Part shown: piece by piece, positions 334 to 25,220 of the stretch | How the letters are laid out: each line of letters begins with the position of its first letter | How positions within the stretch are numbered: position 1 is the first letter of the stretch | From: Thermoanaerobaculum sp. | GTDB taxonomy: Bacteria; Acidobacteriota; Thermoanaerobaculia; Multivoradales; UBA5704 | Length of the DNA stretch: 49,608 nt | Direction of reading: 5' to 3' | Assembly (NCBI GenBank): GCA_021154885.1 | Contig: JAJKHS010000146.1 | Span: forward strand, 1 to 49,608 | Notes under the pieces: model-generated | Databases searched by the model: none | What the model was told of the DNA's origin: nothing | Seen by the model: only the letters and a program-made list of their open reading frames with translations | Position numbers and translations under genes: made by a program

Positions 334-1632
334 ATGCCAGAGTTGAACATGCCTCTGAAGGTCTTCTTCTCATACTCACACCAAGACAAAGCTCTACGGG
401 ACGAGCTTGAGTCTCATCTCAGCTTGCTCAGGCGTGAAGGTCTCATCACGACATGGCACGATCGGGAGATCGAGGCTGGGCAAGAGTGGCAACGAGAGAT
501 CGACGATCGTTTAGGAACTGCGGACATCGTTTTGCTGCTGGTGAGTCCGCCCTTCATCGACTCCAGCTACTGCTGGAGCTTCGAGACGGAAATAGCGCTC
601 AAGCGTCACCAGCGAGGCGAGGCGCGGGTCATTCCAATCATCTTGCGGCCAGTGGACTGGAAATCTTCACCCCTCGGGGTACTGCAGGTGCTCCCCAAGG
701 GCGCGAAGCCCGTTGTCGAATGGGCGCTGCGCGATAGCGCCTTTCTCGAGATTGCGTCGGAGCTACGAAAGGTGATTACAACTCTCGTGGCTTCCCGCTT
801 GTCGGCTGCTGCCGCTCTCGGACAGCCAAATCCACAAGTCAAAGATGACCGGTTTGTAAAGGCAGATGTGTCAAGTGGTGCATCGTCACCGGTTCAGCCG
901 CAGCCTCTTCTTTACCTCCCTCCCTCCATCCGTGTCTCCACTAGAGAACAAGAACCGCATAGCACAGCGACGCAACCAGATCCGACTGCGCGTGTTGCGA
1001 GAGTTTGGCGTGACCACCGACGCCCGCTGTCTTGGCTGGTCTCTTGGTTTTTGGCTACTGCAATCGCGTTTGCGTTCCGCCCAGCGATATTCGGAATGAT
1101 GATTACTATAACTTCAGGAACATTATTATCTACATTATTATCTCATGCCGCTGTGCAGGACTTCCTCATGATTGCCTTGCCCGGCATCCTGCAATGGGCT
1201 GTTATCGCAATTTTCTTCAGGCACAGCCTGTCGGTCTTACGAATGACCCTTTGGATTGCAGTGATGACGGCGTTTGCTGCAACTTCCGCGGTCCCTCAAG
1301 AGATCCTGAGGAACGAATACGTACTACTCGCATGGCTGGCCTTGGGGATGCTTGTGGGCCGGCTCGCAACCTTCCCTGATCAAAGGGACTTGGCCCAATT
1401 TCGATCCTGGCGCGTCGTGCTGCTGCTGTTGCCCTTCGCACTCTTTCCGATCGCTCTAGAACTGGTTGGACCATGGAGCGGAGTTCTCTTCACTCTGGCA
1501 ATCGTCTCGATGATCATGGCGCCGGCCATCGAGTTGCTCCGGTCCCTTCCTAGGCCAGAACGACGGCGTGAACTTCTTGTCCAGTGCCGCGCGGCGCCCG
1601 GAGAATCTCCCTCCTCAGTTCAAAGACACTGA
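334..1632 (+). CDS. TIR-domain protein with C-terminal multipass membrane region
   Basis: The 432-aa protein starts with a TIR domain (residues about 8-150). The strand-A motif VFFSYSHQDK is at 10-19, and the SSYCWSFE segment places E84 where bacterial TIR NADases carry the catalytic glutamate. A low-complexity linker (about 165-225) leads to six or seven hydrophobic segments (about 233-415), so the TIR domain is tethered to the membrane. TIR domains usually degrade NAD or make cyclic ADP-ribose signals, often in antiphage defence; here that role is inferred. The ATG at 334 has a GGAG at 324-327 with 6-nt spacing, and a TATAGAAT -10-like box lies at 288-295. Base use is visibly less GC-rich than in the pil genes, consistent with transfer. 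No Thoeris, CBASS or STAND partner is adjacent, although the neighbouring DUF4143-type ATPase is divergent. Confidence 0.8.
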   Translation: MPELNMPLKVFFSYSHQDKALRDELESHLSLLRREGLITTWHDREIEAGQEWQREIDDRLGTADIVLLLVSPPFIDSSYCWSFETEIALKRHQRGEARVIPIILRPVDWKSSPLGVLQVLPKGAKPVVEWALRDSAFLEIASELRKVITTLVASRLSAAAALGQPNPQVKDDRFVKADVSSGASSPVQPQPLLYLPPSIRVSTREQEPHSTATQPDPTARVARVWRDHRRPLSWLVSWFLATAIAFAFRPAIFGMMITITSGTLLSTLLSHAAVQDFLMIALPGILQWAVIAIFFRHSLSVLRMTLWIAVMTAFAATSAVPQEILRNEYVLLAWLALGMLVGRLATFPDQRDLAQFRSWRVVLLLLPFALFPIALELVGPWSGVLFTLAIVSMIMAPAIELLRSLPRPERRRELLVQCRAAPGESPSSVQRH

Positions 1633-2917: not shown

Positions 2918-3358
2918 GTGAGGATCTACTTGGACATGTGCAGCATCCAGCGCCCGCTCGACACGAAAGCCCAGGTGCGGAACGCAGTGGAAGCCGAAGC
3001 CATCCTGGGGGTCCTCGCTCTGTGTGAGTCGGGGCAACTGGACCTGGTGTCCTCAGACACCCTGGTCTTTGAAGCTGAGCGGAACCCCCTGCCGACGAGA
3101 AAGCGCTTTGCGTTTGCGGTTCTGGCCCAGGCAAAGCTCATTGTGCGCACAGACGAGGAGATCGAAAGGCGGGCACGCGCGCTGCAAGCTCAAGGACTCA
3201 AGACTCTCGACGCCTTGCACATGGCGTCGGCTGAAAGGGCCCAGGCAGATTTCTTCTGCACATGCGACGACCGATTTCTCAGGCGAGCCAGGGTGTTGGG
3301 GATTGCTCCCACCCAGGTCGTTTCGCCGCTCGAACTGATCGCGGAGGTAGGACCATGA
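2918..3358 (+). CDS. PIN-domain toxin-like protein
   Basis: The 146-aa protein starts IYLDMCSIQRPLD, the beta-strand with the first acidic residue of a PIN ribonuclease fold. It contains conserved E28 (VEAEAIL) and ends with LDALHMASAERAQADFFCTCDDRF, where the LDALH aspartate and the TCDDRF aspartates complete the metal site. PIN toxins are usually VapC-like endoribonucleases that cut tRNA or rRNA. The GTG at 2918 is the only start that keeps the first strand. Its stop overlaps the start of the next gene (ATGA at 3355-3358), so the pair is cotranscribed, with the toxin first. Length (130-150 aa) fits the family. Confidence 0.8.
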   Translation: MRIYLDMCSIQRPLDTKAQVRNAVEAEAILGVLALCESGQLDLVSSDTLVFEAERNPLPTRKRFAFAVLAQAKLIVRTDEEIERRARALQAQGLKTLDALHMASAERAQADFFCTCDDRFLRRARVLGIAPTQVVSPLELIAEVGP

Positions 3359-3570: not shown

Positions 3571-3583
3571 CGCCAGCCAACCC

Positions 3584-4966
3584 TCAATCCCCGCCCTTCA
3601 ACCCCGCCTTCTTCGCATAGTACCTAAACGACCGGAAGCTCATCCCCAGCAGCTCGGCGGCCTGGGTCTGGACGCCGTCGGTGCGCTCCAGGGCCTGGAT
3701 CATGAGCTGGGTGCGGATGGATTCGAGGTAGGCCTCCAGGTCCAGACCCTCCTCGGGGAGCTGCACCAGGTCGGGATGGGTCCGCCGGTTGGTGAGGAGG
3801 TGGACGGGCAGGTCGCGGGTGGTGATGGTCTCGGCGTGGGAGAGGGCGAGCACCCGCTCGATCAGGTTTTCGAGCTCGCGGACGTTCCCGGGCCAGTCGT
3901 AGCTCTCCAGGATCTGCATCGCCTCGATCGAGATCTGGCGCAGCGGCAGCTCCATCTGCCGGCTGTATTTCTGCAGGAAGAAGTCGACCAGCAGGGGGAT
4001 GTCCTCCCGCCGCTGGCGCAGGGGCGGCAGGTGGATGGGCAGGACGTTGATGCGGTAGTACAGGTCCTCGCGGAACTCGCCGGTCTGCAGCCGCCCCTCC
4101 AGGTCCTGGTTGGTGGCGGCGATGATCCGCACGTCGACCGACTCCTCCTCCGTGCCCCCTACTTTGCGCACCACCTTCTCCTGCAGGGCGCGCAGGAGCT
4201 TGACCTGCATCGAGGGGGTCATCTCCCCGATCTCGTCGAGGAACAGGGTGCCGCGGTCGGCCTCCTGGAACAGTCCCTTCTTGTCCTTGACGGCGCCGGT
4301 GAAGGCCCCCCGCTCGTGGCCGAAGAGCTCGCTTTCGAGCAGGTTCTCCGGCATCGCGCCGCAGTTGATGGAGAGGAACCGGCGGGTCGACCGCGGGCTC
4401 GCGAAGTGGATGGCGCGGGCGATCAGCTCCTTGCCGGTGCCGCTCTCGCCGTGGATCAGCGCCGTCGAGGCGGTGCGGGCGATGCGCTCGACGAGGGAGA
4501 AGATCGCCTGCATGCGGGCGCTCTTGCCGATGATGTTGTTGAAGGTGTACTTCTGCTCCAGCTCGCGGCGCAGGTAGACGTTCTCGTCCGCCAGCTCGGC
4601 CCGCTCCAGGGCCTTCTGCGCCACGATCTTCAGCTCGTCGACGTCGAACGGCTTCGAGACGTAGTCGGCCGCCCCCAGCTTCATCGCCTCGATGGCCGAC
4701 TTGGTGGAGGTGTAGGCGGTCATCATGATGACCGGCGGGCCGCCGCCGTTCACCTTGATCTCCCGCAGCAGGTCGAGGCCGTTGCCGTCCGGCATCAGGA
4801 TGTCGCAGAGCACGAGGTCGAAGGCATTGCGCTCCAACTGCTTGTGGGCCTCGGTGACCGAGCGTGCCGTGGTCACCTCGTACCCCACGCCCTGGAAGAG
4901 CAGGGAGAGGAAGTCGAGCATGCTCGACTCGTCGTCGACGATCAGCAGGCGCACGCGCGGGCTCAT
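3584..4966 (-). CDS. pilR: Sigma-54-dependent response regulator, PilR/NtrC family
   Basis: The 460-aa protein has the full NtrC layout. A receiver domain (1-120) carries the DD acidic pair at 11-12 and phospho-acceptor D55 in LVLCDILMP. The AAA+ domain (about 140-375) has Walker A GESGTGKE, the sigma-54 contact loop GAFTGA and Walker B LFLDEIGE. The C-terminal Fis-type helix-turn-helix reads [20 protein letters not shown]. It would open sigma-54 promoters when phosphorylated by the upstream kinase. The ATG at 4966 overlaps the kinase stop (ATGA). The order pilT-pilC-pilS-pilR supports a role in pilin gene control. A decayed duplicate of its 3' end and AAA+ core lies at 2708-2820. Confidence 0.93.
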
Positions 4967-20921: not shown

Positions 20922-21671
20922 CTAAAAGTTTTTGGCTTCCTGTACTCTTAGAAAAATGAACACGCGCCTCATCTGGCCCTGGCCAGAGACTATTCTGGCT
21001 TTGTAATAATGAAGTTTATCACCAGTGGGTGACGTGATCCGCGCTTGAACATCAGCTTCTCCGCCAACGACATTGATCGTTCCAGATGTTAGCCCTCCTG
21101 GCAGGCGAATCTTTACACCTTGCCGAAGCTCAGAATCAGTAAATATGCGGTTCTCTTGACTCGATAGTTTCAGCGTTGCCCCGACTACAGATCCTATCGG
21201 ACTCAAGGAGAGCTCGAGAGTGGAGCCTTCCGGGATGTTCTGCCTGACGAAAAGCGACGGACCGTCTGGAGGTTTTTCTTCTTTGACGATACTCGATACG
21301 GTAACTCCCGCTGGCAGAGGGGCCAGGGCCGGAAAATCTATGAAGTTATCCTCGCCGCCCTTCACGATTATCGGCTTGATCCTCACCGTCTGATATCCTG
21401 ACGCCGAAAACTCCAGGTAGTGCGCCCCCGGCTGGACGTTTGGGAACCGGATGAAACCTCCGTTTGATTCCTTAGTCTCGTCGTTATCAAGCCTCACAGT
21501 GACAGTTGCTCCGGGGGCATCTTTAGTATAGGCAACGATAGTCCCGGGCGTCCTAGCTCTTTCTCTCAGGTCGCGAATAAACCATCCAACTCCTGCCAGG
21601 AGGGCGACGGCAATCGGTACCCACCAATAGCTACCAGCCACGGAGTTAGTTTGCCTGTTCTGCCTTGCCAT
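20922..21671 (-). CDS. Membrane-anchored protein with PEGA/carboxypeptidase-regulatory-like domain
   Basis: The 249-aa protein has one membrane segment (about 14-32, YWWVPIAVALLAGVGWFI) near the N-terminus, with the remainder outside. Residues about 42-95 (APGATVTVRLDNDETKESNGGFIRFPNVQPGAHYLEFSASGYQT) look like a PEGA or carboxypeptidase-regulatory beta-sandwich. The rest is beta-rich without a known motif. Base composition is clearly lower in GC than the flanking core genes, consistent with transfer. No relation to the adjacent nuclease relic is evident beyond shared orientation. Function unknown. Confidence 0.65.
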   Translation of the reverse strand: MARQNRQTNSVAGSYWWVPIAVALLAGVGWFIRDLRERARTPGTIVAYTKDAPGATVTVRLDNDETKESNGGFIRFPNVQPGAHYLEFSASGYQTVRIKPIIVKGGEDNFIDFPALAPLPAGVTVSSIVKEEKPPDGPSLFVRQNIPEGSTLELSLSPIGSVVGATLKLSSQENRIFTDSELRQGVKIRLPGGLTSGTINVVGGEADVQARITSPTGDKLHYYKARIVSGQGQMRRVFIFLRVQEAKNF

Positions 21672-21719: not shown

Positions 21720-22112
21720 GTGCGGAAGCCGAAGATCGGAATCCAGGCCGTCTGTGCGCTTCTCGTAGGCGGTGGTGGTAAAGACGAACCTGCGGTCCTC
21801 GCCTCGCTGGCGAAGGGTGACGTAGCTCCGCAGGAAGTTGCGGAGGGAGTCGCGGACGACCCGGTCGGTGATGCTCAAGCCGCCGGTGTGGGCCTTGACC
21901 TGCTCGCTGACGGCGCCGCCGTTGAGGAGGAAGCGGTCGAGGTCTTCGTCTCCTTCGCAGAGGAGGATCTCTCCCGGCTGGAGATCGAGTCAGCGTTGGA
22001 CACCCGGGCAGGTCTGGTAGAGGTAGCCGCGGATCGAGGCGTGGGCGGAGCGCCTCTCGTCGAGGAGTTTGAGGTCCGGCCTCGGGTTCGGGGAGGCTCC
22101 GCTGGCGGGCAT
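21720..22112 (-). pseudogene. Relic of a Cap4/DUF4297-type dsDNA nuclease N-terminus
   Basis: On the minus strand, ATG 22112 begins MPASGASPNPRPDL..., then ASIRGYLYQTCPGVQR. An in-frame TGA (21990-21992) stands where the sequence expects tryptophan. The same frame continues LDLQPGEILLCEGDEDLDRF and LNGGAVSEQVKAHTGGLSIT, then RVVRDSLRNFLRSYVTLRQRG, before losing homology near 21720. The GYxYQ start and the EGDED(LD) acidic pair are typical of the dsDNA nuclease domain in Cap4/DUF4297 effectors of antiphage systems. What remains is about 130 codons of an originally longer gene, so it is a decayed defence gene. The signal-sensing part is missing. Confidence 0.65.
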
Positions 22113-22163
22113 GATTCAGAAGATGCTAGCAGAGATGAATGGACGTACCGTGTATCATCCTGC

Positions 22164-22562
22164 ATGCCTTCCTACATCGCCCTCCTCCGAAAGGACCCGG
22201 ACAGCGACTACGGCGTCGAGTTTCCCGACTTCCCGGGATGTGTGACAGCGGGTAAGGATCTGGAGGAGGCGCGGAGCCTGGCCGAGGAAGCTCTGGCCTT
22301 TCACCTCGAAGGCTTGGCCGAGGACGAGGCGCCACTGCCCGAGCCCAGCGGGCTTGAGCAGGTCATGGCCGATCCGGCGAACCGTCAGGCTATCGCCTTA
22401 CTGGTCGAGGTTCCAGAGACGCGGGCCGCCACGGTGCGGGTGGACCTCGCGCTCCCGGAATCGACGATTCGCGAGATCGACGCCAAGGCGCAGGCGAGGG
22501 GGATCAGCCGCTCCGCATTCCTGGAGGAAGCCGCGCTGGAGGCCCTGCGAAAATCCGCCTGA
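22164..22562 (+). CDS. hicB: HicB-family antitoxin (orphan)
   Basis: The 132-aa protein has a HicB N-terminal domain (MPSYIALLRKDPDSDYGVEF, PDFPGCVTAGKDLEEARSLA) and a C-terminal ribbon-helix-helix (VRVDLALPESTIREIDAKAQ, then ARGISRSAFLEEAALEALRK). HicB neutralises the HicA mRNA-cutting toxin and autorepresses. No HicA frame was found directly up- or downstream, so it is an orphan, or HicA is encoded elsewhere. ATG 22164 lies 5 nt after TATCAT (22153-22158), with no Shine-Dalgarno: a likely leaderless start. The preceding in-frame sequence belongs to the antisense relic and is not coding. Confidence 0.8.
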   Translation: MPSYIALLRKDPDSDYGVEFPDFPGCVTAGKDLEEARSLAEEALAFHLEGLAEDEAPLPEPSGLEQVMADPANRQAIALLVEVPETRAATVRVDLALPESTIREIDAKAQARGISRSAFLEEAALEALRKSA

Positions 22563-22608
22563 CTGGTGGGCGGCTCCCGCGGCGAGCCGCCGAAGGGAGG
22601 TTGCCGCT

Positions 22609-22858
22609 TCGCGATCTCTGGTCCGGAGCTCGCGAGCTACGGTGGAGGGATCTCAATCCCTGTTGCAAGGCTCGCGATCCCTGCTGCAAAACTCGCGAGG
22701 CCTGCTGCAAAGTTCCCGATCCCCGTGCGGGGCTCGCGAGGCCTGCTGCAAAACTCACGAAATCTCGTAGAGGGCTCACGAGGCGCGGACCGGGGCTGGC
22801 GAGTTTCGCAACAAAATTCGCGAGCCCGCACCAGGGATCGCGGGTTTTGCAACAGAGT
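22609..22858. repeat. Tandem 21-bp repeat array with internal orientation switch
   Basis: Twelve contiguous units start at 22609, 22630, 22651, 22672, 22693, 22714, 22734, 22755, 22776, 22797, 22818 and 22838. Ten are 21 bp and two are 20 bp. Most begin TCGCGA or a close variant. The left units end in CTGCTGCAAAAC or similar, while the units from 22797 onward carry the reverse complement (TTTCGCAACA, GTTTTGCAACAG), so the array is an imperfect large palindrome. Short frames inside it translate to 7-residue repeats and are not convincing genes. It follows HicB and fills the gap to hepT. It is not a CRISPR: there are no spacers. Confidence 0.85.
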
Positions 22859-22950
22859 TTTCGGGGTGTAGAGCGGAGATCCGGTACCCCGCTTTACGCC
22901 TCCGCGTGTTGTTGTAGCGCATGCACAGTACCGCAGGAAGGATACGGGGC

Positions 22951-23382
22951 CTAGAGATCGCCCTTGCGCAGCCCGAACGCCTCCACAACGCGGGCGCCCA
23001 GATCCTGGAGATCTCCGAGATGCTGTTCGACGATCCGCTCCACGATCGCGGGATCGACCGACTTGTACTCATGGATGGCGATGTTGCGGAAGCCGACCAT
23101 TCGGCGCAGGCGCCCCGCCATCTGGGAGTCGATCAGGCCCCGTCGTTCGAGGAGAGAAAACGCCTCCGCTGTCGAATCCGGTGTGCCATAGTTTTCGGAC
23201 GCGACGACATGGGTAGCGAGGTCGATGGCCGCTTGGACAGCACGCAGAAGGTTGATGGCGGTGATGTCGTCGATGTCGACAGGCAGGAGGTCTTTCCGCG
23301 TCTCGCCGTGGACTTCCGCAATCCGGGCCAGACAGCGGTCAACGACGGCTATCTTGGCCATCACCACGTCACGGTCGACCAC
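22951..23382 (-). CDS. hepT: HepT-like toxin (HEPN domain)
   Basis: The 143-aa helical protein has the HEPN RNase motif RNIAIHEY (R-N-x3-H-x-Y form) late in the chain and the usual start VDRDVVMAKIAVVDRCLARIAE. HepT is the toxin of the HepT-MntA system; its RNase site is AMPylated and silenced by MntA. The GTG at 23382 is chosen because it keeps the conserved first helix; the ATG at 23361 would cut it. It overlaps the end of mntA by 14 nt, so the two are coupled. Confidence 0.85.
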   Translation of the reverse strand: MVDRDVVMAKIAVVDRCLARIAEVHGETRKDLLPVDIDDITAINLLRAVQAAIDLATHVVASENYGTPDSTAEAFSLLERRGLIDSQMAGRLRRMVGFRNIAIHEYKSVDPAIVERIVEQHLGDLQDLGARVVEAFGLRKGDL

Positions 23383-23782
23383 TACACACCCTGGCGAAGA
23401 GTGCCCGCTCGGCTTCGCGGCGGCCGATCTTCACGTCCTCGTACATGCTCACGGTTCGGCTGAAAAAGGCGTAGCGGCGCCTCAAATCGCGATCGACCAG
23501 GAGACGGCCGTGCCGCAGCACCTGCATGCCGAGGATCGGCGAGGTCTGGTCAAGGTCAACGAGGTCGATGTCGCGAAGTAGGATTGCTGCCAACTCTGCC
23601 CGGGCGTCGAAGAGCTCGAGGGTCGAAGGGCGCCGGCGGAAGAGCGCAGCCAAATCGATATCCGAGTCCAGCCGTGCTGTCCCGGCGGCCTCGGAGCCGA
23701 ACAGCCACAGGGTGTCCAGCCCGAACTGGCGGTCCAGGAAACTCACGACCTTCTGGATCTCGTCGCTGGTGATCATGGACAT
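23369..23782 (-). CDS. mntA: MntA-like nucleotidyltransferase antitoxin
   Basis: The 137-aa protein has the minimal nucleotidyltransferase motif GSEAAGTARLDSDIDLA (GS-x10-DxD). A distal aspartate (DIDLVDLD) completes the metal site. MntA AMPylates HepT at the HEPN tyrosine. ATG 23782 is preferred: its first base is the last base of the upstream Uma2 stop (TGATG) and GGAGG lies 4 nt upstream. An ATG at 23776 would also serve. It heads the mntA-hepT pair and is translationally coupled to the Uma2 gene. Confidence 0.85.
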   Translation of the reverse strand: MSMITSDEIQKVVSFLDRQFGLDTLWLFGSEAAGTARLDSDIDLAALFRRRPSTLELFDARAELAAILLRDIDLVDLDQTSPILGMQVLRHGRLLVDRDLRRRYAFFSRTVSMYEDVKIGRREAERALFARVCSGRP

Positions 23783-24468
23783 CACGCCTCCCGGTGTTCG
23801 AGGACGTAGTACCAGGAGGAAATCGGGGTCGGGTAGCGCATCAGCCGGAAGGACGGCCCTAGTCGGGGAGACCGCATCCAGCCGTTCCGGTCCGCCTTGA
23901 CAGGGATGTACTTACCGTCTTGCAGCGCGTAGATCTGGAACCACACCTTGTCGTTACGAGTATCCGCGAGCCACAGCTCGGGGACTCCGGCTCGTGCGTA
24001 GACCAGGGGGAGGTGTTTCGTATCCTTCGACTCTGAGCTGTCGCTGAGGACCTCGACGATCAGGTCCGGAGCGCCCTCCATCTTGGAGAAACGATTCGGC
24101 TGTCCCGAGGCGGCAGGGATGTACCGGACCTTCCCGCTCTTGAGGGAATCCCAGAGAACGACGATCGCGTCCGGCTCGGCGGCGAAATCCGCGAATGGAA
24201 ATTCCAACCGGGTCCTGTCCACATAGGCTTCTCCGAGACTTCCGGTGACCAGGAAGTGGAGCGTCGCGAAGATCGCCCCCTTGACGATCCCGTGAGTCTG
24301 CAGATCCTCCGGGCTCATGTCGACGTAAACGTCCCCCTCCAGGTAGTCGATGCGCCCGGTCTCCGGAAAATCGTCGGACTCCAGCCATCTCTGGAATCCT
24401 TCGTAGGTGAAGGCATCCTCAGGAATCCGGAGATTCTCTTCAGCGACGCTCTCTTGTCTTCCGGCCAC
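23782..24468 (-). CDS. Uma2-family (DUF820) nuclease-fold protein, copy 1
   Basis: The 228-aa protein matches the Uma2/DUF820 PD-(D/E)XK fold: GRIDYLEGDVYVDMSPEDL (early acidic strand), EPDAIVV (D of the nuclease core), APDLIVEVLSDSS (the E-x-L-S core) and YARAGVPELWLAD. Members are putative endonucleases, mostly uncharacterised and often in multicopy. The GTG start has AGGAGG upstream. It shares near-identical N-termini and the same 5' UTR motif (CTTCAGGAG) with copy 2, so the two are a tandem duplication. It is followed by mntA with 1-nt overlap. Confidence 0.85.
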   Translation of the reverse strand: MAGRQESVAEENLRIPEDAFTYEGFQRWLESDDFPETGRIDYLEGDVYVDMSPEDLQTHGIVKGAIFATLHFLVTGSLGEAYVDRTRLEFPFADFAAEPDAIVVLWDSLKSGKVRYIPAASGQPNRFSKMEGAPDLIVEVLSDSSESKDTKHLPLVYARAGVPELWLADTRNDKVWFQIYALQDGKYIPVKADRNGWMRSPRLGPSFRLMRYPTPISSWYYVLEHREA

Positions 24469-24527
24469 GGTGAATCTACCTCCTGAAGATAACCTAGGCG
24501 TCTGAATCCTGTCCAGTTCCTGCGGGC

Positions 24528-25220
24528 TCAGCTTCCCCGGTGCTCCAAAGTATAGCGCCAGGTCCCCAACCTCGGCCGGCGTCGGCGGAGGAGACGGAAG
24601 GTCTGGCCGAAGCGGGGAGAGAGGGTCCAGCCGTCAGCGTCGGGTGCGATGAGCTCATATCGGCCGTCGCGAAGAGTGTGGAGGTCGAACCGGAGATCCT
24701 TGCCGCGAGCGTCGATGAGCCAGAACTCGGGAACGCCGGTCCGGGCGTAGAGGAGGGGGAGTTGAATGGTGTCCTTCTGGACCGAGCCATCGCTGATGAT
24801 CTCGACCACCAGGTCAGGAGGTCCCTCGAAGGCGATGAAGCGGTCCGGCATGTTTCTCGAAGATGGGACTGGACGCACCTTCTCCTGATAGAGCGAATCG
24901 AGAAGTACCACCACCACGTCCGGCTCGACGGAGAGGTTCGCGAACCGGGAGGTGATGCGGGTGCGGTCGATGAAGACCTCTCCGAGATCGGGATCGACGA
25001 CGAGCCTGGCCAGCGTCGAGACCACGGCCGTCTTGGGAGCGGAGTGGGTGTACAGATCCTCCGGGCTCATATCGACTTCGACGTCTCCCTCCAGGTAGTC
25101 GATGCGCCCGGTCTCCGGAAAATCGTCGGACTCCGCCCATCTCTGGAATCCATCGAAGCTGAAGGCATCCTGGGGAATCCGAGGATTCTCTTCGACGACG
25201 ATCGCGTGTCTTCGGGCCAT
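24528..25220 (-). CDS. Uma2-family (DUF820) nuclease-fold protein, copy 2
   Basis: The 230-aa protein is the paralogue of copy 1. Residues 13-60 are almost the same (SDDFPETGRIDYLEGDV in both), while the middle and C-terminus have diverged. It keeps the core acidic positions (EPDVVVVLLDSL; PPDLVVEIISDGS; ARTGVPEFWLIDARGK). AGGAGAT precedes ATG 25220. The duplicates lie head to tail, 60 bp apart, and read toward mntA-hepT. Whether they act as nucleases or are retained as a host-specific array is unknown. Confidence 0.85.
   Translation of the reverse strand: MARRHAIVVEENPRIPQDAFSFDGFQRWAESDDFPETGRIDYLEGDVEVDMSPEDLYTHSAPKTAVVSTLARLVVDPDLGEVFIDRTRITSRFANLSVEPDVVVVLLDSLYQEKVRPVPSSRNMPDRFIAFEGPPDLVVEIISDGSVQKDTIQLPLLYARTGVPEFWLIDARGKDLRFDLHTLRDGRYELIAPDADGWTLSPRFGQTFRLLRRRRPRLGTWRYTLEHRGS

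Follow-up and report, generated by a model that had tools for sequence, protein, structure and literature searches.

How might a bacterial TIR domain be controlled when the remainder of its protein is built of membrane-spanning segments, and how exceptional is such a protein in the lineage that encodes it? For most known bacterial TIR effectors, the activating signal comes from a soluble sensor or a nucleotide messenger. The locus that raises the question lies at one end of a stretch of 49,608 bases (hereafter the window; that is, all of contig C146 of an 8.2-Mb host genome in 161 contigs, placed in the Acidobacteriota by its relatives), in which a sequence-only reading had placed an open reading frame (ORF) with an N-terminal TIR domain and a hydrophobic C-terminal half. 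The frame was recovered exactly there (Table 1); it encodes 432 amino acids and starts 333 bases from the contig end, with AGGAG ending five bases ahead of the ATG. On the evidence set out below, we suggest, at about even chances, that the protein is an inner-membrane-tethered TIR NADase activated by clustering, of which we infer the activity, the clustering, the trigger and the role in defence.

Table 1 Positions of the TIR–membrane gene and its parts in the window
Feature	Position	Strand	Residues	Basis or remark
Gene for TIR and predicted six-pass membrane protein	334–1632	+		ORF of 432 amino acids; ATG start; AGGAG at 324–328
TIR domain	358–789	+	9–152	Pfam TIR_2, PADLOC PDLC00420, model and structure matches
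Codon of E84, putative catalytic glutamate	583–585	+	84	Invariant in 45 of 45 alignment rows; aligned to Cat1 E74
Linker	790–1047	+	153–238	Partly disordered in model (pLDDT <50 at 168–214); Arg-rich end before first membrane segment; K+R 11
Membrane domain (predicted)	1048–1539	+	239–257, 277–295, 299–317, 329–347, 361–379, 384–402	Segments at 1048–1104, 1162–1218, 1228–1284, 1318–1374, 1414–1470, 1483–1539; hydropathy and loop charges
Arg-rich C-terminal tail, predicted cytosolic	1540–1629	+	403–432	K+R 7

The N-terminal part matches Pfam TIR_2 (2.3e-17, residues 10–116; 64.1 bits against a cut-off of 28), Pfam TIR (3e-7; 30.9 bits against 21.3) and the PADLOC model PDLC00420 (ThsB; 7.3e-56, 187.7 bits, residues 9–159), the last over profile positions 3–153 of 319 only; its second half (about 154–319) is absent from the protein. 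Two related proteins, L100 (7.5e-130) and L106 (2.5e-142), match this model nearly end to end, reaching 315 and 313, and carry a different C-terminal domain alongside a related TIR; what the window protein has in common with PDLC00420 is hence the TIR module without the second domain. An AlphaFold model of the TIR domain has a pLDDT mostly above 90, and its residues 6–152 superimpose on 7xoz_A (Z 16.4, rmsd 1.9, 133 aligned) and on AbTir (7uxu_A; Z 15.0, rmsd 2.1, 128 aligned), with TIR-containing solved structures aligning at Z 12.4–16.4 among the 50 matches listed. The closest solved structure by sequence is Cat1, a CRISPR-associated TIR NADase (2.1e-7). A tree of 46 TIR domains leaves that of the window in an unresolved comb with no supported sister.

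In an alignment of the window TIR with those of 44 of 80 relatives (45 rows), S13, D43, S77 and E84 are invariant in every row, and a reading of the pairwise alignment sets them opposite Cat1 S7, D33, S68 and E74, which are among the residues described as lining the NADase site (PMC12162218). The same account reports, in the portion drawn on here, that growth arrest is lost when D33, S68 or E74 is replaced by alanine and that D33A loses activity only in part in vitro (PMC12162218). It also places H8, N9 and N10 at the site and describes N10A as defective (PMC12162218); these three positions are Y14, S15 and H16 in the window protein, and the partner-side Cat1 residues K121 and Y122 could not be placed on its TIR domain. 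As four active-site residues are conserved and the TIR fold is modelled with high pLDDT, we regard the domain as probably catalytically competent and of the NADase type, and the glutamate that had been put forward at the catalytic position is indeed residue 84.

The C-terminal half was earlier described as a six- or seven-pass membrane domain, of which six passes find support in hydropathy and loop charges. Segments were called from hydropathy only, in 19-residue Kyte–Doolittle windows, and number six at thresholds of 1.2 and 1.4, five at 1.6 and three at 1.8. Six at 1.4 were reached by 15 of 500 shuffles of the whole protein and 4 of 500 of its C-terminal part, and five at 1.6 by 3 and 5 of 500, respectively; six segments exceed what composition alone usually yields. 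The loops carry, from the N to the C terminus, 11, 0, 1, 1, 3, 0 and 7 Lys and Arg residues; with six passes this amounts to 11, 1, 3 and 7 inside against 0, 1 and 0 outside, a positive-inside bias with both termini in, which places the TIR domain in the cytosol. A seventh segment is doubtful, given that a possible extra helix (at about 250–269) appears only in a low-confidence model of the membrane part, which was built from its single sequence (pLDDT 60.6) and for which the best Foldseek match has an E value of 0.38, the matches being mostly designed helical proteins and uninformative as to a fold that may be a known one.

We found no convincing relative of this membrane part in any set searched. 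No family in Pfam, PADLOC or NCBIfam passes its cut-off over it, and the half searched alone gave nothing at E up to 1, a range in which HMMER filters discard most matches above about 0.1; with the whole protein, the one sub-threshold NCBIfam match over the membrane part is RhaT (E 0.037; 13.4 bits against a cut-off of 369). The same three libraries, at E up to 1, place no STAND, SAVED, STING or Sir2 domain in residues 153–432, in agreement with the earlier statement that the membrane domain is the only partner of the TIR domain, and a match to a SAVED_TIR model covers the TIR part only (residues 5–110). Two other genomes of the genus and one of the family contain no match to the membrane part. 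A set of 98 related genomes gave, besides the query, one weak match (L011; 7.2e-5, 31% over 97 amino acids), which is interrupted by a stop and whose ORFs are not those of a TIR protein; it is again the best of the six weak matches besides the query in a class sample of 60 genomes. Across 396 genomes of the phylum there were seven weak partial matches besides the query (best 8e-5). One of the seven is L011; the other six, at loci L012–L017, fall on ORFs for an MFS transporter, BacA, a GGDEF protein, a PAS/GAF/PDZ protein, a protein that weakly matches a glycosyltransferase and a protein that matches nothing, and as none has a TIR match we take their similarity to be a chance one between hydrophobic stretches. 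A pattern scan of 84,980 species returned 53 pattern matches to the membrane half, none of which was confirmed; because such a scan detects close relatives only, distant ones may exist. Plasmids contain no match to the membrane half at E up to 1, and the 40 plasmid records that match the full protein cover 25–38% of it, that is, the TIR part, with none above 80% of its length. Phage sequences gave no match to the full protein, and no viral-contig match was confirmed.

Is the combination itself unusual? Among relatives of the TIR domain (the best 80 of 128 loci, many of them cyanobacterial; the matches at L096 and L123 contain a stop), only one, L092 from a Leptolyngbyaceae metagenome-assembled genome, has at least three segments after the TIR domain at a threshold of 1.6; L085, L087, L096 and L138 have a single segment after it and L122 a single segment before it. 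We also examined the ORFs of all TIR_2 matches in the host genome (G000; 41 of 41, 40 of them over the family cut-off) and in a sister genus (G003; 52 of 52, in 51 distinct ORFs). At least three segments outside the TIR domain occur in 3 of the 41 (the window gene and those on contigs C143 and C136) and in 3 of the 52 (on C152, C104 and C25, two of the three segments of C25 lying barely over threshold). The architecture, taken at the outset for an exception, is thus rare among the TIR relatives sampled elsewhere (1 of 80) but no exception in its own family, where polytopic ORFs hold 6 of the 93 matches. Given these six ORFs, whose non-TIR parts share no BLASTP similarity with one another beyond chance (best E 0.16), TIR-type domains appear to have been coupled to membranes repeatedly in this bacterial family, with different membrane modules, which suggests that the family places a TIR enzyme at the cell membrane. 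The G003 protein on C104 (L155, 130–1914) joins CHASE2 (6.3e-17), membrane segments and a C-terminal TIR domain on one chain, a layout that, judged from its domains, is that of a sensory receptor with TIR output. The C143 protein (L243, 423–2417), also near a contig end, is a 665-residue frame in which about eight membrane segments precede a PDLC00420-type TIR domain (1.8e-37), 45% identical to that of the window over 141 amino acids; for the C136 protein, the SEFIR score is better than the TIR score. The two genomes are themselves TIR-rich, with 41 and 52 TIR_2 matches, whereas two fragmented genomes of the same genus have 8 and 15 and the other 36 genomes of a sample of 40 have 0–20 each.

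The gene had also been read as low in GC and as lying next to decayed accessory DNA. Its third-position GC (GC3) is about 0.60 (0.59–0.60), the fifth lowest among the 41 TIR ORFs of the genome, against at least 0.9 in most other long predicted ORFs of the window, which bears out the low GC; other accessory-looking ORFs of the window are low too (for example, 0.54 at 20925–21671). All three polytopic TIR genes of the host genome have a GC3 of 0.57–0.61, against a median of 0.75 for the 41, a composition consistent with acquired genes. The decayed DNA is borne out only in part, by partial copies of a pilR-like gene: 2708–2756 is a 98% copy of 3581–3629 within that gene, and 2758–2820 is a 95% copy of a separate piece of it (4227–4289). 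A related 30-base stretch at 246–275 resembles the 3′ end of the same gene, such that pilR-like pieces or repeats (246–275, 2701–2820, 3574–3629 and 4227–4289) flank the TIR gene on both sides, an arrangement that suggests repeated insertion or duplication at the pilR end. On the left, a divergent ATPase-like ORF beginning at 3–239 is cut by the contig end (AAA_14, 19.8 bits, below cut-off); on the right, a PIN-domain ORF (2918–3358; PF01850, 2.3e-9), possibly the toxin of a toxin–antitoxin pair, precedes the pilS/pilR-like genes. Farther on, 21720–25220 holds a HicB-like antitoxin, a HepT-like and nucleotidyltransferase pair and two neighbouring Uma2 genes. The window ORFs scanned include neither a defence partner nor a ThsA, the left flank being visible for 333 bases only. 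Around the 80 TIR-relative loci, 142 of the 147 nearest-neighbour ORFs computed were scanned, and matches were to TIR_2 (22), PDLC00420 (20) and TPR models (about 22); matches to defence models, among those listed (25 of 236 PADLOC families, with no control set for comparison), were to type I restriction specificity (2), mad5 (2), type I methyltransferase (1), JetD (1), AbiEii (1) and SoFic (1).

How such a protein would work can be envisioned as follows. A linker of about 80 residues would join the TIR domain to the six-pass domain, which would hold it on the cytosolic side; infection or envelope damage would perturb or cluster the membrane domain; the TIR domains would then assemble, with composite active sites forming between neighbours; and the cleavage of NAD+ would arrest or kill the cell. 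In Cat1 the active site is described as being completed by a neighbouring TIR domain (PMC12162218), and clustering is therefore a natural switch. A precedent for restraint by a membrane tether is TirC, a protein that amoebae acquired from bacteria: they are reported to tolerate its full-length form, whereas removal of the N-terminal membrane helix makes it toxic, and in other organisms the protein is reported to be toxic despite the helix (PMC13142454). The TIR fold, the four invariant active-site residues, the loop charges that place the TIR domain in the cytosol and the lack of a soluble fused partner argue for this tethered NADase, as do the other TIR domains with different membrane parts (one of them with CHASE2) in G000 and G003. 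Against it stand the absence of relatives of the membrane domain from the sets searched, the lack of an adjacent defence gene (where the left flank is cut off), the differences at the Cat1 H8, N9 and N10 positions, the merely partial loss of activity in Cat1 D33A in vitro and the ThsB type of the closest PADLOC model, given that the published role of ThsB is to make signalling nucleotides that act on ThsA, not to be the effector that depletes NAD (PMC11204291). A broader proposal can be offered only tentatively and is, as a whole, unlikely: that the protein is a one-protein immune receptor, in which the orphan six-pass domain would sense phage action on the inner membrane and directly bring about TIR assembly and the loss of NAD+, no nucleotide second messenger being needed, and that the family arrived at such receptors on several occasions, with a different membrane domain attached to TIR each time.

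In the main rival reading the protein is a signal enzyme at the membrane: its TIR domain would make a messenger of the cyclic ADP-ribose type, as in Thoeris, for a separate effector encoded elsewhere. We consider this a minority prospect to be taken seriously: the TIR module matches PDLC00420, L100 and L106 pair a related TIR with another C-terminal domain, and the genome has its many TIR_2 matches, yet no ThsA lies among the ORFs scanned to the right. A genome-wide search for STALD, which we take to be the ThsA sensor domain, returned no match, but neither did it in any of 14 control genomes. Rather unlikely, in our view, is a role outside phage defence, in which the protein would be a membrane sensor or resemble a transporter, with its TIR domain as regulator, and respond for example to envelope state or a solute. 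In favour of it count the CHASE2–membrane–TIR protein of the sister genus, laid out like an ordinary sensory receptor, the lack of a known defence system seen adjoining the window gene, and the transporter model RhaT, to which the membrane part has its one library match, below threshold. Defence genes are often acquired accessory genes, however, and the GC3 of 0.59, together with a membrane part that goes unmatched in the two genus genomes and one family genome, suggests a gene of that kind.

That the protein is a non-functional remnant, its membrane half having arisen when a TIR gene was extended by chance or by a frameshift, we regard as very improbable. Such an origin would suit the lack of relatives of the C-terminal half, the decayed flanking DNA and the odd GC pattern by codon position in the linker (0.68/0.58/0.44). 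Yet the frame stays open for 280 codons past the TIR domain, with 6–12 stops in the other frames of the same stretch; only 3 of 20,000 Markov sequences reach an open frame of these 840 bases. The loop charges, moreover, suit a real topology, and no frame of the gene yields a match to the C-terminal parts of the TIR relatives (E up to 0.05), the sole such match (E 0.03, 20 amino acids) lying outside it at 1904–1963.

Should the membrane domain itself prove to be the sensor, bacteria would in principle have a counterpart of the TIR receptors that are anchored in membranes. The six TIR–membrane proteins of two related genomes offer several apparently independent cases for testing membrane control of TIR NADases. 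A search of literature titles, with thin coverage of subscription journals, found no paper on a bacterial TIR domain with a polytopic membrane domain, and we do not claim that none is in print; one title retrieved (PMC11237479) concerns CesT/Tir chaperones, judging from the portion seen, and was discarded. Bacterial membrane-coupled immune proteins are not new in general, given that the conflict systems described for multicellular prokaryotes include, among their variable parts, CHASE2 with transmembrane helices or multi-transmembrane domains; in the sections of those reports considered here, the membrane parts belong to components other than a stand-alone TIR protein, unlike in the window (PMC8195603, PMC7159879). 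TIR-STING (PMC9402430, as described in the part cited) and TIR-SAVED unite a TIR effector and an activating module on one chain, whereas the window protein has neither a STING nor a SAVED domain. With Thoeris ThsB it has in common the TIR domain recognized by PDLC00420; unlike ThsB, it has a linker and six membrane segments in place of the second half of the model, and no ThsA is seen nearby. Cat1, a CARF–TIR NADase, is its nearest solved sequence and shares four active-site positions with it, but differs at three more and has a CARF sensor, with no membrane part mentioned in the portion of its account used above. Similar in layout is the Leptolyngbyaceae L092 protein, in which a PDLC00420-type TIR domain (9.3e-62) is likewise followed by a linker and then at least three membrane segments, although the two membrane parts have no significant similarity. 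Animal Toll-like receptors are single-pass proteins with an LRR ectodomain. The window protein differs from them in its N-terminal TIR domain and polytopic membrane part, and resembles them in the predicted placement of a cytosolic TIR domain at a membrane.
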